NCBI GenBank assembly: GCA_027083135.1
Contig: JALWQH010000022.1
Span: 1-64,000 of the forward strand
Reading direction: 5' to 3'
DNA: 64,000 nt
Source of the DNA: Desulfurococcales archaeon
GTDB taxonomy: Archaea; Thermoproteota; Thermoprotei_A; Sulfolobales; WAQK01
Shown here: positions 15,958-35,416 of the stretch, piece by piece
Position numbering within the stretch: position 1 is the first letter of the stretch
Layout of the letters: every line of letters begins with the position of its first letter
Made by a program: the position numbers and the translations under genes
The notes under the pieces: generated by a model
Database searches by the model: none
What the model saw: only the letters and a program-made list of their open reading frames with translations
Told to the model about the DNA's origin: nothing

Positions 15958-17601
15958 TCATCGCGGAGGAGCTATAACTGCGCTGCATATTGTTCCCCCA
16001 GCTTCAACCAATGCCTCTCCCCTCTTCAAGCCTTTGAGGGTCTTGTGGAGGGATTTGTCATGTATCCCCATAGTCTTTGCAATATAGTCTATGTTCCTGG
16101 GCTCCTGCAGCGAGAATATGAATTTAAGCCATGTATTGGCAAGTATTGCTTCATCCAGGTCTAGGGGCTGCTGCGAAATTACTATGAAGCCTAGATCATA
16201 TTTGCGGCTCTCCACTAGTAGTCGTGCAAGGGTTGAACGCTTACTCTTCTCCCTTGAAGCTATTCTATGAGCCTCCTCCACCACTATGATCTGAGGGCCT
16301 GGTAGGCCTCCCCTATACATAGTTACTGCAAGGCGTCGGAGCAGTGTTTCCACGTAGAGTGTTTTGACATGTTCTCCTGGAAGAGAGTCAAGCTTCACCA
16401 CTACTTGTCTCCCGAGAAGGCTTTTAGAGGACGCTGCTGACTGCTGGTAGAATGTCCTTGACAGTAAGTCTAAGTACATGGCTATTCCTGCAAGCCTTGA
16501 CTTCTCCGAGGATGAGGATGATGCTTCAAGATGTTGTCGAAGTGTAAGGGCAACGTTTAGGAGGGTAGGGGGTTCGCGGCTCCATGTGGATGGGTCATGC
16601 TGGTATATGCCCTTAGACTCATATGCCTCCTCTATGAGCTGCTCTAGGGTTACCCTCTGCAAGCTGCCCATTCCGAATACCATTTGAATAATATCCGCGA
16701 TCTCTGATGCTTTTTCTCTGGGGGAAGAGCCTTCGAGGTCGAGTAGGTTTAATGGAAGCTGCGTGGCGTCAAGCACTTCGTAGCCTTTATCCTCCAGGTC
16801 TCCGTACTCTCCATGGAAGTCGAGTACTAGTACGCCTACACCTCTGGCTGAGAGGCCTACTACTAGTCTTTTAGCAAGTGTTGTTTTGCCTGAGCCGCTC
16901 ATGCCTGCTATGAGTATGTGGGGATTCCTATAAGCGAATGGATTTATTCTCAAAGAATGGGGGGTTACTGGGTGCCAGCACATGTTTTCCTTTCTCTTCA
17001 ATATTCTGCTGCATACATGGATGCATGCCGTCAATCTTCCAACTAGTATTCCCTTTGAATACGTGTCAGGCCTTCTCACCCATAATGTTGAGACAGCTAC
17101 GGCTGCTGGAAGCCCATACCAGGAGAATCCTGAGGCTAGGCCTAGGAGCAGGGAGAGCCTTTCATCCCACGCTGTCAACATTACTATTATGAGAGATGAG
17201 GCTAGGCCTAGGAGGTAAAAGCCGGCTTCAATGTTTCTGAAAAACCCTGCCCCGGCTATTATGCTGAGTGTGAGGGAGGCTCCGGCAAGGGCTGCGGCTA
17301 CTGCTCTGAGCCTAAGCTTCCTCCTAGGCTTGGGGAGATTAAAGAAGCCTGTGGCCAGTGATGCTCCTAGACCTAGGAGGAGTCCTGCAGCAAGGGGGAT
17401 AGGGTTTGCCTTCATGAGGGGGAGCAGGGGCAGCGAGGCAACTGCAGCCACAGGTGTTGCGGCGGCAAAAAATGCAGCCAATATTATTAGCGATGCTAGG
17501 CTGAAGATCCCTGTGGGATTGCTTAGGCTTAGGGCAAGTAGCGCTGCGTATAGGGCTAAGCCTATAATGGTTCTCACCGCTGCCTGGCTCTCAGTGCTCA
17601 A
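15958..17601 (-). CDS. membrane-anchored HerA/FtsK-like P-loop ATPase
   Basis: This 547-residue protein has two parts. The first 180 residues are very hydrophobic and contain about six possible membrane segments. A HerA-type ATPase follows. Walker A is ILIAGMSGSGKTTLAKRL near residue 230. DFHGEYGDL follows it. Walker B is QIIVVEEAHRIASREK, followed by an arginine-rich segment and ISQQPLDLDEAI. Soluble HerA normally pairs with NurA nuclease; neither NurA nor Mre11/Rad50 is nearby and the membrane domain is atypical. A DNA-pumping or export role at the membrane is inferred. The start codon is TTG at 17601. Confidence 0.85.
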   Translation of the reverse strand: MSTESQAAVRTIIGLALYAALLALSLSNPTGIFSLASLIILAAFFAAATPVAAVASLPLLPLMKANPIPLAAGLLLGLGASLATGFFNLPKPRRKLRLRAVAAALAGASLTLSIIAGAGFFRNIEAGFYLLGLASSLIIVMLTAWDERLSLLLGLASGFSWYGLPAAVAVSTLWVRRPDTYSKGILVGRLTACIHVCSRILKRKENMCWHPVTPHSLRINPFAYRNPHILIAGMSGSGKTTLAKRLVVGLSARGVGVLVLDFHGEYGDLEDKGYEVLDATQLPLNLLDLEGSSPREKASEIADIIQMVFGMGSLQRVTLEQLIEEAYESKGIYQHDPSTWSREPPTLLNVALTLRQHLEASSSSSEKSRLAGIAMYLDLLSRTFYQQSAASSKSLLGRQVVVKLDSLPGEHVKTLYVETLLRRLAVTMYRGGLPGPQIIVVEEAHRIASREKSKRSTLARLLVESRKYDLGFIVISQQPLDLDEAILANTWLKFIFSLQEPRNIDYIAKTMGIHDKSLHKTLKGLKRGEALVEAGGTICSAVIAPPR

Positions 17602-28827: not shown

Positions 28828-29205
28828 ATGCAGGGGAGAGCAGTGAGCGAAATAGTCTCCATGCTTATAATTCTATCACTCTCCATATCATCCGCTACAG
28901 CAGTATACATGATTGCAGGCCGCCAAGTAAACAACATGAACTCTATGCTTAGAGGCGAGCTCAACGATATTGACCACCAGCTGAATAAGCCCTGGATACA
29001 TGTAGTGAAGCTTGGAGGACAATATTACCTGGTCATCATAAATCCTTATGATGCAAAGCTGAGCCTAGATGAAATAATAATCGATAACACGACTGTTAGT
29101 AGAGGAGTGATAGTAAACCCTCATTCAAGCCTCATCTACAGGCTGGCTGAAAGGCCTAACCGCATTTTAGTTTTAGCGGGAGGCGAGATCTATGAGGCTC
29201 CATAG
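28828..29205 (+). CDS. type IV pilin-like protein with class III signal peptide
   Basis: This 125-residue protein begins MQGRAVSEIVSMLIILSLSI, the archaeal class III signal form. A short charged leader is followed by SEIV and a hydrophobic helix, cleaved by a PibD-like peptidase. After a coiled section (QVNNMNSMLRGELNDIDHQL) there is a small beta domain. It could be a minor pilin, an archaellum-like stator component or an accessory part of the mating apparatus. Its stop overlaps the next gene by 14 bases, and cedA1 lies further downstream, so a functional link to DNA transfer is possible but unproven. Confidence 0.7.
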   Translation: MQGRAVSEIVSMLIILSLSISSATAVYMIAGRQVNNMNSMLRGELNDIDHQLNKPWIHVVKLGGQYYLVIINPYDAKLSLDEIIIDNTTVSRGVIVNPHSSLIYRLAERPNRILVLAGGEIYEAP

Positions 29206-31018
29206 GGCACAGGCCTTAATGGCAGGCCTAGCAGTAATACCCCTAGTCACAATAATAGCCGTGATCCTTGTATCAGGGCTCCACACATGGAGCGAGGCGA
29301 GCAGACTGTACGCTGAGTCCCTTGACAAAAGATACATCATAGCCTCACAGCACGCGGAGATTCATTATAATGGTTCAAGCCTCATCATAGAGAACAACGG
29401 CCCTGTCCCAATACGGCTTAGCAAAGCCATACTCCTCCTCGGAAACGCTTCCACCGAGATAAGCTTAAACAATACCGTACTCTACCCAGGGGAGAATAAA
29501 ACCATAGAGGCTGGAGACACCATAACCGGAGCCTACGTGGTGACAGGGGACGGCGTCATTCTAAATGCAGATCCCTTAAACCCTGTAGACCAGTATAATG
29601 AACAGCGACTAGTATTTAGAGACAACATGACCGTCAACTATACAGGCCTCTTCCTAGGAGGATATACTGTGAGAATAGGCACGAATAACTGGGAGCTGCT
29701 CGACAAGCAGGGAATAATATATTATCCATCCAACTGGAGCTTCGATTCAGACGACCTAGCCATAATAGACCTAGAGCCCTCGGAGAAAACCATAATCCAC
29801 GTGGAATTACAGGCATATAAGCACTACATATTCGATCATGGAGTACTAGAAGATAATGGAACCCTCACACAAGGAGAATATGGAGGCTATAAGGCCTACG
29901 CGGGGGCACAGGGCTTCGAGCTATCCATAGGCAGCCCTAGGAAGACACTTAATGAATCCTGGGTGGAGGAGAACATGGTACCATGGTATGGTAAAGAGGG
30001 GAGAATATACACGCAGGTGCTGCTCCTTAAACCCTCAACATCCTCAGCCAGCACCTTCAGCGTAAAAGTGGAGGATGAGGGAGGCAAGTTTCAGAAAACC
30101 TTCACAGGCACACGCCTAGTCTTCTGGATAACATTTAACCCCAAAACAGGAGACGAAGCGATATGCTGGGACGAGGAGTTCAACCCCTCAAACCTAGAGC
30201 CCGCTTCAGGCACAATCACCATTGAATGGACTAGTGGGAGCTACATAGATGCTGTAGCCAAACACTACTATGAGGCAAACTACCTGCTCGACCTAGACGT
30301 TGAGACCAATAACACATGGGTGGAATATATGTCCAGGAATATCACCATGCCTCTAAGCAAAGACTCGGAGACAAGGCTGCCAATATACTCGGACAACCAA
30401 TCTGTGGAAATAGTAATCTACTATCCCTCAATAACAACAATGCAGACCAACCTTGAATCAATCAACATAACACTATGGTCTAGCAAAACCATATATGTGT
30501 GGAGCCTGGGAAACGGGAGCCTAGCCATCTCAGGACTAGGCTCACCATCAAACATTAAAGGCGCGACGCTCAGCCTCACCCGCCTGCAGAACTCAGCGTC
30601 AAGAATAGAGCTTGTTCAAACCATAAGCAAGCTCACCGTGACAGGCATACCGCTAGGAGCACAGCTAACCATAGGTAATGAAACCCTAAGCCCGGCTGGA
30701 GATACAGCTACAGTAGAGGTGAGAGGAGTACCCCCCAGAACAATAACAGTAGTAGTACCTATAGCCGTGGGGATAACCAGTAATGGAGAGGAGATCACGC
30801 TTACATCAAGCATGTATCTTGATACTCAGGGCTACCTAGTCGAGGTAAACTTGCCTTCAACCCCCACTGTAAGCAAGCTTTACATAACTGTGCCTCCAGG
30901 AGCAGAGCCTGAGGCAAGCAATACTTCATGCTACATTGTCTACGGCTCATGGATGCAGGTGATAATAGATAATCCGCCGAGCGGGGATTCCCTATCCCTG
31001 CTATTCCCCTACGGATAG
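29192..31018 (+). CDS. large secreted or membrane-anchored beta-rich protein
   Basis: This 608-residue protein has one N-terminal hydrophobic segment (AGLAVIPLVTIIAVILVSGL). An extracellular-looking region rich in beta strands and N-glycosylation sequons follows. The early domain contains ENNGPVPIRLSKAILLLGN, a pattern seen in archaeal pilin-like or FlaG-like beta sandwiches. There is no second membrane segment at the C-terminus. It overlaps the pilin-like gene and precedes cedA1 by about 60 bases and a new TATA box. A surface adhesin or pilus-base component is suggested; function is unknown. Confidence 0.7.
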   Translation: MRLHRAQALMAGLAVIPLVTIIAVILVSGLHTWSEASRLYAESLDKRYIIASQHAEIHYNGSSLIIENNGPVPIRLSKAILLLGNASTEISLNNTVLYPGENKTIEAGDTITGAYVVTGDGVILNADPLNPVDQYNEQRLVFRDNMTVNYTGLFLGGYTVRIGTNNWELLDKQGIIYYPSNWSFDSDDLAIIDLEPSEKTIIHVELQAYKHYIFDHGVLEDNGTLTQGEYGGYKAYAGAQGFELSIGSPRKTLNESWVEENMVPWYGKEGRIYTQVLLLKPSTSSASTFSVKVEDEGGKFQKTFTGTRLVFWITFNPKTGDEAICWDEEFNPSNLEPASGTITIEWTSGSYIDAVAKHYYEANYLLDLDVETNNTWVEYMSRNITMPLSKDSETRLPIYSDNQSVEIVIYYPSITTMQTNLESINITLWSSKTIYVWSLGNGSLAISGLGSPSNIKGATLSLTRLQNSASRIELVQTISKLTVTGIPLGAQLTIGNETLSPAGDTATVEVRGVPPRTITVVVPIAVGITSNGEEITLTSSMYLDTQGYLVEVNLPSTPTVSKLYITVPPGAEPEASNTSCYIVYGSWMQVIIDNPPSGDSLSLLFPYG

Positions 31019-31041
31019 ATTAGTTTCAGTCATCCCCCCCA

Positions 31042-31051
31042 CATATAAATA
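31042..31051 (+). promoter_or_regulatory. TATA box of the ced operon
   Basis: CATATAAATA lies 30 bases upstream of the GTG start of cedA1, so the leader would be only a few bases long and hold GGGGGAGG. Confidence 0.55.
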
Positions 31052-31079
31052 CCTCCCCTAGGCTTGTGGGGGAGGAATA

Positions 31080-31343
31080 GTGGATGTAGTTAGCTTCGTG
31101 CAGCAGCTTACTGTTAAGATCATAACTATAGCCTGGGCAGTATTCCTGCTTGCATGGAGCGCGGGGTGGCTGCTCAAGGGCACGCCCATACCGTTCCCCA
31201 GGATCAAGAGGACGGGGCAGGACTTCATAGAGGATGCAGTGTGGGCAGCCTTCTGGCTAGCCATGGGGGGAACAGTGTTTGCACTCATAGCGTACTTCAC
31301 ATCCAACGTCTCGCTGCCTATGCCTCAGCCTCCAAACCCCTAG
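31080..31343 (+). CDS. cedA1: CedA1-like mating pilin (two-helix membrane protein)
   Basis: This 87-residue protein consists of two hydrophobic helices (residues 10-32, KIITIAWAVFLLAWSAGWLL, and 52-74, WAAFWLAMGGTVFALIAYF). They are joined by a basic loop (PIPFPRIKRTGQ). This is the alpha-helical hairpin of CedA1, the VirB2-like subunit of crenarchaeal DNA-transfer pili. There is no class III signal peptide. The GTG start at 31080 follows GGGGGAGG. It is first in the run cedA1-cedA-cedA2-cedB. The assignment rests on topology plus gene order, as the sequence itself is short. Confidence 0.72.
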   Translation: MDVVSFVQQLTVKIITIAWAVFLLAWSAGWLLKGTPIPFPRIKRTGQDFIEDAVWAAFWLAMGGTVFALIAYFTSNVSLPMPQPPNP

Positions 31344-31354
31344 GTGAAATACTT

Positions 31355-32752
31355 ATGGAGGAGTGGCTCCTACTACTATCATTCCACCTAGCAGTACTAA
31401 CCTACTATACTGGAACATTGATCTACGCGCTACCAATACCTTGGAGAGGTATTAAGAGATGGGGGCCTGAACTCATATATGATGGCGCAGTATCAGCAGT
31501 CCTAGTATTCGCCTTCACATTAATAGTGGCCAGTATAGAGTACCTGAGATTAATTGCTGGAGGAGGATGGAGCCAGTTTTACAGCTGGATAATAGGCAGA
31601 CTTGGAGTAATCCTATCATATCAGCTCCTAGCATCAACCATAGCCGCAGCCCTAAGCAGCGCCTCAGGCTTCTCTCTCGGAGGCCTACTATGGCCTCACC
31701 TCAAACTATTATCCGAGGCAGCCATAGTGCTCGACACCGTGGTAGCCCTAGGCCTCGTGATCCAGCATTACTATGTTAGAATGCTAGCCATAGGCGTCAT
31801 GCTCTACGCAATACCCTTCAGGGCAGCCAGAACCGCGGGAGCGGCTCTAATAGCCTTCACCATAGTCTTCTACGTAGCACTGCCACTCATGCCTGCCTTC
31901 GTAGACTCCCTAGCCTCATCCCCCATAGAGAAGCCTAGCCAACAGGAATTGAAGCTTGGAGTAAGCTTCGCTGAAATATACGTCTACGACTCCTCCTCTC
32001 ACCCCATACCAGGCGCAGAGGTCCTTGTGGAAGAGAATAGCAGCATTGTTGCAGAATATCCTACAAGCAGTGAGGGGATAGCTGATGCAGGCCCGCCCGA
32101 CAACGGGCTTCCCAGCACCCCCTATAGAATTAAGATAGAGTATTCAGGTCTAATGTTCAGAGCAACTCCTGATCCAGTAAGACCCGCCGTAGACTATAGG
32201 CATATGGGAGGCATAAACACCCTAGAAGCACGTGTGCCAAGCATGCTGTGCCTGGCCGGAGCCTACAGGCCTATAGCTATAAGCGACCCCTCACCCAGCA
32301 TAGTGGAGACCAACAGCATGGATGAGAATGGAAGCATAACTATCAGCATACTATTCAAAACCAATGGGGGAGAACTATACGTCACACTGCTTAAAGGAGA
32401 CCAACTATACTCGCTTACAATCAACAATACACCTCGAAAACCCCTTAAAACAGGATGGAAGTGGCGGGGGATCGAAGGCTCATACTACAAGATAACGCTG
32501 AATCCAGGCTCCTACACCCTCACCCTCACATACCATGCTGCAGAAACCCCTAAGCCAAGGCTGGAGGAGAAACCATACCTCACAGGAAGCGAGGGAGACA
32601 ATATTAGAAGCCTTACTGACAAGGTGTCTAGAATAATATTCTCATGGGTTGTACTGCCAGTAGCCTACCTGTTGATCCTGATCCTAGCAACATATTCACT
32701 AGCCTATACTCTGGGAGGAAGAGGGAGGATAAGAATACCTGTAAGGGTGTAA
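31355..32752 (+). CDS. cedA: CedA-like polytopic membrane channel of the DNA-transfer system
   Basis: From ATG 31355, behind TAGGTGA, the protein has 465 residues. About six membrane helices lie in the first 190 residues (for example LLLLSFHLAVLTYYTGTLIY and SAVLVFAFTLIVASIEYL). An external beta domain of about 240 residues follows (FAEIYVYDSSSHPIPGAEVL resembles a carboxypeptidase-regulatory fold). A last membrane helix is near the C-terminus (LPVAYLLILILATYSLAYTL). CedA is the predicted membrane pore of the crenarchaeal system for DNA import. The large external domain is longer than I expect for Sulfolobus CedA. Longer upstream starts overlap cedA1 and are unlikely. Confidence 0.72.
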   Translation: MEEWLLLLSFHLAVLTYYTGTLIYALPIPWRGIKRWGPELIYDGAVSAVLVFAFTLIVASIEYLRLIAGGGWSQFYSWIIGRLGVILSYQLLASTIAAALSSASGFSLGGLLWPHLKLLSEAAIVLDTVVALGLVIQHYYVRMLAIGVMLYAIPFRAARTAGAALIAFTIVFYVALPLMPAFVDSLASSPIEKPSQQELKLGVSFAEIYVYDSSSHPIPGAEVLVEENSSIVAEYPTSSEGIADAGPPDNGLPSTPYRIKIEYSGLMFRATPDPVRPAVDYRHMGGINTLEARVPSMLCLAGAYRPIAISDPSPSIVETNSMDENGSITISILFKTNGGELYVTLLKGDQLYSLTINNTPRKPLKTGWKWRGIEGSYYKITLNPGSYTLTLTYHAAETPKPRLEEKPYLTGSEGDNIRSLTDKVSRIIFSWVVLPVAYLLILILATYSLAYTLGGRGRIRIPVRV

Positions 32753-32756
32753 GCCC

Positions 32757-32903
32757 ATGCACATGGAGGAGCTTATAGCAGCATTCATCCTACTATACTT
32801 GGTGCTTAGAGGATCATCCATAACTAGGCTTGAAGCCATCCTCCTAGCACTAATACTTCTCACTCCCATAGCTTTCAGAGTAATGGAGGAGGCCAAGAGA
32901 TGA
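32757..32903 (+). CDS. cedA2: CedA2-like small two-helix membrane protein
   Basis: This 48-codon gene is readily overlooked. It begins at ATG 32757 (or 32763, MEELIAAF), 4 bases after cedA. Two hydrophobic helices are visible (LIAAFILLYLVLRG and LEAILLALILLTPIAF), separated by a short polar turn. The stop overlaps the ATG of cedB (ATGA). Its size, topology and place between cedA and the ATPase match CedA2, an accessory membrane subunit of the crenarchaeal DNA-transfer system. Sequence recognition alone would not be possible at this length. Confidence 0.65.
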   Translation: MHMEELIAAFILLYLVLRGSSITRLEAILLALILLTPIAFRVMEEAKR

Positions 32904-34615
32904 TAGCATACATAGTGTCATCTTTCACTGCTGCAGGCCTCCTAGCACTACTATCAGCGCATCTTAGGAGGAGGATCCTCAGGAAACGCTTCCTGCAAAT
33001 AGCCTCTAAGATAATACCTTCAACAAACACGCTGTCACTGGAGATAGGGGAGGATGGCATACTCCTGGCTAGGAGCAGAGGCTATGTTAAGGCAACCCGC
33101 TTCATAATCATAGATGAACCTGCAACATCTCCTCGAAGACTAGATGATCAGGAGTTAGGCCGGTTGTCCAGGAAGTTTGCAAGCATAGTTTACTCCACCA
33201 GCAGTGAGACGCAGGTAATAGTTCTCCGAACACCCATGGATCTCAGGAGAACTCTGAAGAGCCTTGAGAAAAAGATCCTTAACATGAGGCTCACATTAGA
33301 ATATAATCCCGAAGATAAGGGGCTTGAGAGAAAGCTACGCGTACTCGAAGCAGTTCATTCCAGGATAATCAGCGGGGAGAAACCTTCACGCTCCAAGATA
33401 ATGCTGGGAGTCAGCCTAAGAGATAAGGATGCTGAAACCTGTCTGAGAAGAGTTAAAGCAGAATCAGATGCGATCTTATCAACCCTAGGATCCCTAGGGC
33501 TGAAGGCTAGGATAGCCTCACGAGAAGAAGTCTCAAACACACTCCTAGCAATTATGGGTGTAGGCGAGCCTGAACGCCTGGCAACCCATCTGGAAACAGA
33601 TATCTCATATATAGGGCCAGGACTACTGGATCGACAGCCGACAGGTAGAGGCGTTTATCTTGGAAGAGATCTGGAGACAAATGCACCCTTCTTCTATGAC
33701 CTCGAGAAATACGGCACCCGCCACATAGTGGTTGTAGGCCCTACCGGCAGGGGTAAGACAACCCTCCTCAGAGTACTTGCAGCCAGAAGCGCAGCCATAT
33801 ATAAGGACCTCAAACTACTCCTCATAGATTTCAAGGGAGACCTGACACCACAGCTGTCAGGACTAGTATGCGTGAGAGATCCTTCAACCATAAGCTTCAC
33901 CGAGCTTACGAGGCTTCCAGCAAACTATCCTGAAGGAGCCTGGGCATACCTCATCCTAGAATCGGTGAAAACGGCTATAGAGCTTGAAGTAGGAGAGGAG
34001 CATGCCCTATATTCCTCAATGCTCTCCGCGCTTCATGAGGAAGGAGTCATAAGGCCTGAAAGACTAGTGGAGAACTCTAAAGGACACCCAGCCCTCCTCT
34101 CAAAGCTTGAATACATTGTTGGATCATCCTCCATGCATGAGGCTGGAGAACAAGCCTCCCTCTATGCAGGCTACAATCTAGGATCACTTCCAGGGGATAA
34201 GAAGAACATATATGCCTCTCTAATCCTAGCCAGGCTGATAGCCGATATTGAAGCCTCAGGTCTAAGCGAGCAGCTCAGCAGGCTGATCATAGTGGACGAA
34301 GCATGGAGGCTGACACGTGGAGGAGGAGCAGTGGTAAAGAGGCTTGTCAAAGAGGCTAGGAGCTACGGTGTCTCAGTGGTGCTTGCCACGCAGAACATAG
34401 AAGACCTACCGCCAGAAATCCTGGATAATGCGGGGACATTCATAGCGTTCGGCTCGCCCGCCGAGGAGTATTTAGGGAAGGTGGCACGCTACTCCTCGCT
34501 GACGAGAGTGGAGGTAGAAAAACTGAAGTGGTTTACAACAGGCGACGCCCTCCTAAGAATATACGATGATCCACGGCCCTTCTGGATCCACGTGGATCCA
34601 GCCATAACACTATAG
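32900..34615 (+). CDS. cedB: CedB-like HerA/VirB4-type ATPase of the DNA-transfer system
   Basis: This 571-residue protein has an N-terminal membrane helix (AYIVSSFTAAGLLALLSAHL). A middle domain of about 250 residues follows. The motor domain comes next: Walker A VVVGPTGRGKTTLLRVLAAR near residue 277, LLLIDFKGDL, Walker B RLIIVDEAWRLTRGGG near residue 465, and the sensor-like VVLATQNIEDLPPEI. This is the layout of VirB4/HerA-like CedB, which powers DNA movement through CedA. Its start overlaps cedA2, so all four ced genes form one operon. Confidence 0.85.
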   Translation: MIAYIVSSFTAAGLLALLSAHLRRRILRKRFLQIASKIIPSTNTLSLEIGEDGILLARSRGYVKATRFIIIDEPATSPRRLDDQELGRLSRKFASIVYSTSSETQVIVLRTPMDLRRTLKSLEKKILNMRLTLEYNPEDKGLERKLRVLEAVHSRIISGEKPSRSKIMLGVSLRDKDAETCLRRVKAESDAILSTLGSLGLKARIASREEVSNTLLAIMGVGEPERLATHLETDISYIGPGLLDRQPTGRGVYLGRDLETNAPFFYDLEKYGTRHIVVVGPTGRGKTTLLRVLAARSAAIYKDLKLLLIDFKGDLTPQLSGLVCVRDPSTISFTELTRLPANYPEGAWAYLILESVKTAIELEVGEEHALYSSMLSALHEEGVIRPERLVENSKGHPALLSKLEYIVGSSSMHEAGEQASLYAGYNLGSLPGDKKNIYASLILARLIADIEASGLSEQLSRLIIVDEAWRLTRGGGAVVKRLVKEARSYGVSVVLATQNIEDLPPEILDNAGTFIAFGSPAEEYLGKVARYSSLTRVEVEKLKWFTTGDALLRIYDDPRPFWIHVDPAITL

Positions 34616-34645: not shown

Positions 34646-34683
34646 CTTTATAATCCCATAGCTCTCTCCCACGTAGGGGAGAG
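34646..34683 (+). promoter_or_regulatory. promoter and inverted repeat upstream of the uL2 gene
   Basis: CTTTATAAT (34646-34654) is a good TATA box. CTCTCCC (34664-34670) and GGGAGAG (34677-34683) form a 7-base inverted repeat around the expected transcription start, and its right arm doubles as the ribosome-binding site of uL2. Confidence 0.5.
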
Positions 34684-34693
34684 TGGTTAAGGA

Positions 34694-35416
34694 ATGGGTA
34701 AGAGGATACTTACACAGCGTATGGGCAGAGGCACATCAGTGTTTCGCAGCCCAAGATGGATTAAGAAGGGAAAGGCCAAGTACCCCCCGCCTACAGATAA
34801 GACTCTCAGAGGAAGAGTTATGGAGCTCATACATGACCCCGGCCGATGGGTCCCTCTAGCCAAAATAAGGCTGGAGAGCGGGGAGGAATTCCTCACCCCC
34901 GCTGCTGAGGGAGTATATGTAGGGCAGCTCATAGAGATGGGGCCCCAAGCCAAGCCGTCCAATGGAAACATACTGCCCCTCTCCTCCATACCCGAAGGAA
35001 CACAGGTATTCAATATCGAGATAAGGCCCGGAGACGGTGGAAAGCTCGCACGGGCTAGCGGCGCATACGCCACTATAACGGGTAGAAGCGGCAACAAGAC
35101 GATCCTAGTACTACCCTCAGGGAAGACTAAAACTGTTCTAAGCTCATCTAGAGCAACTATAGGCATAGCGGCTGGAGCGGGAAGGGTTGAGAAACCCCTG
35201 CTGAAGGCTGGAGCCAACTACTATAGAAGCAAGGTGAAGGCGTGGAAATGGCCTGTGGTGCGGGGAGTAGCAATGAACGCTGTATCGCATCCTCATGGAG
35301 GAGGCAGCCATCAGAGCGTGAGCCATCCAAGCACAGTGGCGCGGACCACTCCTCCAGGCAGGAAGGTAGGACACATAGCCGCACGCCGCACAGGGAGGAG
35401 AAGGGGGGCAAGGTAG
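34694..35416 (+). CDS. rpl2: large-subunit ribosomal protein uL2
   Basis: uL2, 240 residues, lines the peptidyl-transferase centre and helps subunit joining. The N-terminal MGKRILTQRMGRGTSVFRSP and the highly conserved C-terminal RGVAMNAVSHPHGGGSHQ, with the functionally critical His, are intact. In most archaea this gene sits between uL23 and uS19. Here it is alone, upstream of uL3, with its own promoter. Confidence 0.97.
   Translation: MGKRILTQRMGRGTSVFRSPRWIKKGKAKYPPPTDKTLRGRVMELIHDPGRWVPLAKIRLESGEEFLTPAAEGVYVGQLIEMGPQAKPSNGNILPLSSIPEGTQVFNIEIRPGDGGKLARASGAYATITGRSGNKTILVLPSGKTKTVLSSSRATIGIAAGAGRVEKPLLKAGANYYRSKVKAWKWPVVRGVAMNAVSHPHGGGSHQSVSHPSTVARTTPPGRKVGHIAARRTGRRRGAR

Follow-up and report, generated by a model that had tools for sequence, protein, structure and literature searches.

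The Ced system of Sulfolobales, known from S. acidocaldarius and Sa. islandicus, is composed of the pilin CedA1, the membrane protein CedA, a two-helix protein encoded after cedA (CedA2) and the ATPases CedB and CedD. CedA2 has no known role and an attempted deletion was unsuccessful (PMC11868833, PMC9905601), and it has been described as not conserved and as absent from Aeropyrum pernix (PMC9905601, PMC11868833), the lineage of the solved Ced pilus (PDB 8dfu). The Ted system of Thermoproteales (Pyrobaculum) follows the same logic of pilin, channel and ATPase, but its components are without recognisable sequence similarity, its pilin is processed and it has no counterpart of CedA2 (PMC9905601). 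In bacteria, the VirB3 subunit of the R388 type IV secretion system has a pair of membrane helices, wraps around VirB4 and is in contact with VirB6 (PMC9259494), whereas homologues of OMCC, VirB3 and VirB8 have been reported to be absent from Ced (PMC11868833).

Here we describe a ced locus within a 64,000-nucleotide stretch of genomic DNA from a Desulfurococcales archaeon (contig JALWQH010000022.1; hereafter the window) and compare it with cedA1 loci from 60 genomes, falling into families f1 to f16, plus three named loci. Family f5 behaves as Sulfolobaceae, with a CedA of about 260 aa, a CedA2 copy above the curated cut-off (L049) and UpsB above cut-off in nine of ten genomes. Family f3 includes A. 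pernix, since the aligned segment of the 8dfu pilin is found with an exact match at locus L053. Family f7 (L052 and L092) has a cedA1 gene without a recognisable adjacent cedA.

Organization of the ced locus

Four ORFs occupy positions 31080-34615 of the + strand in the order cedA1, cedA, a 48-codon ORF and cedB (Table 1), just as the original prediction had placed them. They are tightly packed, with 11 nt between cedA1 and cedA, 4 nt between cedA and the mini-ORF, and a 4-nt ATGA overlap between the mini-ORF and cedB. The single TATA box that had been predicted is also present ahead of cedA1, whose GTG start is preceded by GGAGG. The gene for uL2 (34694-35416) lies directly beyond, and its own TATA-like box is likely the downstream limit of the ced operon. 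Comparison of gene neighbourhoods showed uL2 downstream of the ced genes in families f1, f2, f3, f4 and f6, suggesting that ced has been inherited vertically as part of the chromosome.

Table 1. Positions of the ced genes, promoter elements and protein regions in the window
Feature	Position	Strand	Basis
Candidate Orc1-2 site AGTTTC, a match to ANTTTC; extended form AGTTTCAGTCATCCC	31022..31027	+	Sequence; motif from PMC9738581
TATA box TATAAA, the only one 5' of cedA1	31044..31049	+	Sequence
cedA1, two-helix conjugative-type pilin, 87 aa, GTG start	31080..31343	+	NF041797; PDB 8dfu
cedA, VirB6-like membrane channel protein, 465 aa, pilin-homologous N-terminal hairpin	31355..32752	+	NF041796; 8dfu profile match; structural model
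CedA ectodomain, residues 206-394, two tandem beta-sandwich domains (predicted)	31970..32536	+	Structural model; Foldseek; weak CarboxypepD_reg match
cedA2-like microprotein gene, 48 aa, two predicted membrane helices	32757..32903	+	Positional conservation; L041 homologue; no NF041798 match
cedB, VirB4/HerA-type ATPase, 571 aa, one N-terminal membrane helix, ATG overlapping the microprotein stop (ATGA)	32900..34615	+	NF041017; fold
CedB Walker A GPTGRGKT, residues 280-287	33737..33760	+	Mostly invariant residues across 35 relatives
TATA-like box preceding uL2, the following transcription unit	34647..34654	+	Sequence

The assignment to the Ced machinery was borne out by profile searches, in which the top matches of CedA1, CedA and CedB were Ced models rather than models of unrelated families. 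CedA1 scored 121.5 bits against NF041797, above the curated cut-off of 100, and matched the sequence of the solved A. pernix pilin with an E value of 2e-25. CedA matched NF041796 best (154 bits, E 4.5e-45) and CedB matched NF041017 best (181 bits, E 4e-53), both below cut-offs tuned to Sulfolobales (330 and 700, respectively). The nearest fold to the CedB model (pLDDT 83.7) was VirB4 of R388 (8rtd, E 9e-18). Judged from its sequence, the locus is a genuine chromosomal Ced operon, and thus a system of known kind. Since 157 of the 197 genomes sampled across the class had a CedA1 above the curated cut-off, the Ced system as such is widespread as well as known.

The locus had also been said to share its layout with Sulfolobales and Aeropyrum, a claim that did not hold. 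Neither of the described systems shows this order of four genes, because cedB was not found beside cedA in f5 and A. pernix is without cedA2 (PMC11868833). The A. pernix locus resembles that of the window in its CedA1 pilin, its large CedA (452 aa), the position of cedB beside cedA and the downstream uL2 gene, but it has no mini-ORF between cedA and cedB.

As for the second ATPase, CedD is encoded away from the operon at C9:16769-17776 and scored 299 bits, below the cut-off of 600, which none of 30 other genomes outside f5 exceeded. At most cedD loci of family f2 (L129, L131-L134, L136-L138 and L142) the CedD frame has only about 300-365 residues and is without the usual N-terminal part, which may be carried by a separate gene. 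The window also encodes a HerA-type ATPase of 547 aa (15958-17601, - strand; DUF87, 58 bits) that has many hydrophobic N-terminal segments and is distinct from CedB and CedD.

Upstream of ced, an UpsB-like prepilin ORF (28828-29205, +; 24 bits, below the cut-off of 70) overlaps a 608-residue ORF with a weakly BasB-like N-terminus (29192-31018, +). This pair sits between an S-layer-like ORF of 1322 residues and ced. The arrangement is similar in the family mate (L107), where both genes are retained upstream of ced, one encoding a pilin-like protein and the other a secreted-type protein of 600 residues.

A two-helix microprotein encoded after cedA

The 48-codon ORF begins 4 nt past the cedA stop and has the size (about 50 residues), two-helix topology and position after cedA that characterize CedA2. 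These properties had been predicted and were found, but the prediction that the ORF is cedA2 itself gained no backing from the curated CedA2 model, since NF041798 did not match the window ORF. Among f5 copies, scores against this model (cut-off 80) ranged from 95.5 bits for L049 through 37 for L054 and 30 for L051 to no match for L095.

We counted two-helix ORFs of 40-75 aa starting between -10 and +40 nt from the cedA stop. Such a mini-ORF followed cedA in 39 of 61 loci, compared to 1 of 415 control ORFs (open frames of at least 150 aa from the same DNA, not all of which are genes), and thus the 48-codon ORF is more than a chance reading frame. Three more loci that narrowly missed this rule were included in the mini-ORF set by hand. 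No mini-ORF was found in f3, which holds A. pernix, or in f6 and f11; absence is concentrated mainly in the clade that holds Aeropyrum. On the CedA tree, presence of the mini-ORF required 5 changes, compared to about 16 with shuffled labels. The reported absence of CedA2 from A. pernix agrees with the data for f3, whereas the positional result is at odds with the view that CedA2 lacks conservation.

The mini-ORF is under purifying selection in close pairs, in which Ka and Ks were 0.025 and 0.242 (L093/L064) and 0.083 and 0.743 (L098/L047), giving ratios below 1. The window mini-ORF and its homologue in the family mate (L041) share about 45% identity, with a Ka of 0.65 and a Ks of 1.9 that is near saturation.

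Beyond its own family, the sequence links of the microprotein are thin, and profiles built with one family left out failed to recover the mini-ORFs of most families. We accordingly abandoned a proof by sequence that the microprotein is CedA2, kept the claim to position, size and topology, and term the microprotein CedA2-like, given these thin links and the lack of an NF041798 match. It is possible, if short of probable, that the mini-ORFs encode proteins that are not homologous to CedA2, with unrelated two-helix proteins having arisen at this one position, where they may serve as a minor pilin or where the short gene may couple cedB translation to that of cedA. The missing NF041798 match and the failed family-out profiles would both be expected in that case, and the f5 copy L049 weakly matches the conjugative pilin TraA (E 0.012). 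Weighing against unrelated proteins are the same position, length and two-helix topology across most families and three links between families. The window ORF was the top non-self match of the f13/f14/f16 profile (E 2e-4), the f1 profile matched L087 (E 0.0017), and the f5 profile had one significant match beyond its own family, L091 of f2 (E 9e-4). The first two links are consistent with the CedA tree, on which the window clusters with its family mate, f13, f14 and f16 (96/92).

A further idea, that CedA2 is fused to CedB at loci without the mini-ORF, was rejected after the numbers of CedB N-terminal helices showed no clean swap. CedB has one such helix in f3 and f6, which lack the mini-ORF, and also in f1 and most of f4, which have it, and none in f2. 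At L087-L090 (f13, f14 and f16) CedB has two N-terminal membrane helices and a separate mini-ORF is present as well. In f5, f8 and f9 the mini-ORF stays beside cedA with no cedB found nearby, suggesting that CedA rather than CedB is the main partner of the microprotein.

A bacterial analogy for the CedA2-like microprotein is the two-helix VirB3 of R388 (PMC9259494). In the window the hairpin gene directly precedes and overlaps the VirB4-type gene, resembling virB3-virB4; the likeness is an analogy without a sequence match, and none of ten mini-proteins matched the VirB3 family in Pfam up to an E value of 5. The retention of the hairpin beside cedA in f5, f8 and f9, with no cedB found nearby, and the variable number of CedB N-terminal helices (none to two) weigh against a simple reading of this kind. 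By this analogy we offer the tentative and somewhat doubtful proposal that the microprotein has belonged to the archaeal DNA-uptake machine since its ancestral form and corresponds to VirB3, linking the VirB4-type motor to the VirB6-type channel, and that it was lost in the Aeropyrum lineage. Such a loss in the lineage of the solved Ced pilus would explain why CedA2 has been thought to be restricted to Sulfolobales.

The CedA ectodomain

CedA had been predicted to have seven helices and an external domain. The structural model (pLDDT 91.9) upholds the external domain and has six long membrane helices instead of seven. Two beta-sandwich domains, at residues 206-293 and 307-394, are predicted between the last two membrane helices. 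Foldseek matched this region to the Gram-positive pilins BcpA and SpaA (E 3e-4 to 1e-3, with low TM-scores) and to single domains of transthyretin and carboxypeptidase type. Positive charge is found on the conserved loops at residues 26-38 and 150-160 and on the C-terminus, and negative charge on the ectodomain, a distribution that places the ectodomain outside the cell in the predicted topology. At the N-terminal end, a profile of 59 CedA proteins matched the 8dfu pilin over the first CedA helices (E 1.5e-11), repeating the published relation between CedA and CedA1 (PMC9905601).

The ectodomain had been supposed to be unusually large, which it is not. CedA ranges from 444 to 489 aa across all 50 distinct loci outside f5 and from 252 to 266 aa across all 11 f5 loci, a difference in length that comes from a single loop ahead of the final membrane helix (median 218 residues outside f5 versus 30 in f5). 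The ectodomain is thus the rule, and its absence from the Sulfolobaceae-like family of the model organisms is the exception. We considered whether the large ectodomain substitutes for Ups pili, as the two have a near-complementary distribution (UpsB was above cut-off in none of the 32 genomes outside f5), but rejected this explanation since the pattern amounts to one change in one lineage. Contrary to complementarity, genome G012 has a small CedA yet no UpsB above cut-off.

A candidate damage-response element in the ced promoter

In Saccharolobus, Orc1-2 binds ANTTTC as a DNA-damage response element (PMC9738581), and we infer that Orc1-2 may bind the AGTTTC ahead of the window cedA1. In the 150 nt before a conserved cedA1 anchor, ANTTTC was present at 29 of 63 loci, compared to 51 of 404 control upstream regions, the loci being related and the counts therefore not independent. 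By family, it was found at 2/2 loci in f1, 10/10 in f2 and 8/11 in f5, and at none in f8 and f9; at the A. pernix locus (L053), the 100 nt examined ahead of cedA1 lacked ANTTTC. The extended motif, a form defined after viewing these same promoters, occurred at 13 of 63 loci and in none of the 404 controls. This element suggests, from promoter sequence, that ced may be induced after DNA damage.

In the genome of the window, an AGTTTC also precedes cedD, at -58, which matches the spacing seen in ced, although this feature is shared neither by the family mate nor by most other relatives. A wider damage regulon defined by the extended motif was rejected, as the genome has only two exact matches, the one at ced and one without an obvious target (G000:C25:8122-8136), which lies between genes with no obvious link to DNA repair.

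Proposed function of the operon

The computed genes, their relationship to Ced (CedA2 apart), the predicted folds and the comparative conservation lead us to propose that the locus is very probably a chromosomal Ced operon encoding a domesticated type IV secretion machine that imports DNA from other cells. CedA1 would polymerise into a hollow pilus of the conjugation type, and CedA, with its pilin-homologous first helices, would form the membrane channel at the pilus base. The beta-sandwich domains of CedA would lie outside the cell, probably contacting the pilus, the S-layer or the partner cell. CedB and CedD would act as the cytoplasmic ATPase pair that drives DNA movement, and the 48-residue protein, as the local CedA2-type subunit, may keep CedB on CedA in the membrane, the place that VirB3 has in bacteria. 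The promoter element would induce ced upon DNA damage.

It is quite unlikely that the operon instead exports DNA or transfers it both ways as in plasmid conjugation. Such a role would suit the homology of the components to bacterial export machines (PMC9905601) and the function of CedA1 in export in Sa. islandicus (PMC11868833); import, however, is what has been measured for Ced in Sulfolobales (PMC11868833), and the chromosomal synteny with uL2 across five families speaks against a mobile element. A decayed or silent remnant, finally, is extremely improbable for an operon in which every frame is open, CedB retains its invariant Walker residues, and a TATA box and a ribosome-binding site are present.

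The microprotein and the ectodomain are common to most relatives of the locus and are not oddities of the window. The comparison of 61 loci suggests that a microprotein occupies the same slot in most Ced-bearing archaea, contrary to its description in the literature as poorly conserved. Should most Ced lineages indeed have a CedA2-type microprotein, this protein would probably belong to the core of the machine, with Aeropyrum as the exception. As the genetically studied Sulfolobaceae-like family has a reduced CedA, the function of the ectodomain has probably gone unexamined so far. Finally, control of ced by DNA damage may extend well beyond Sulfolobales.
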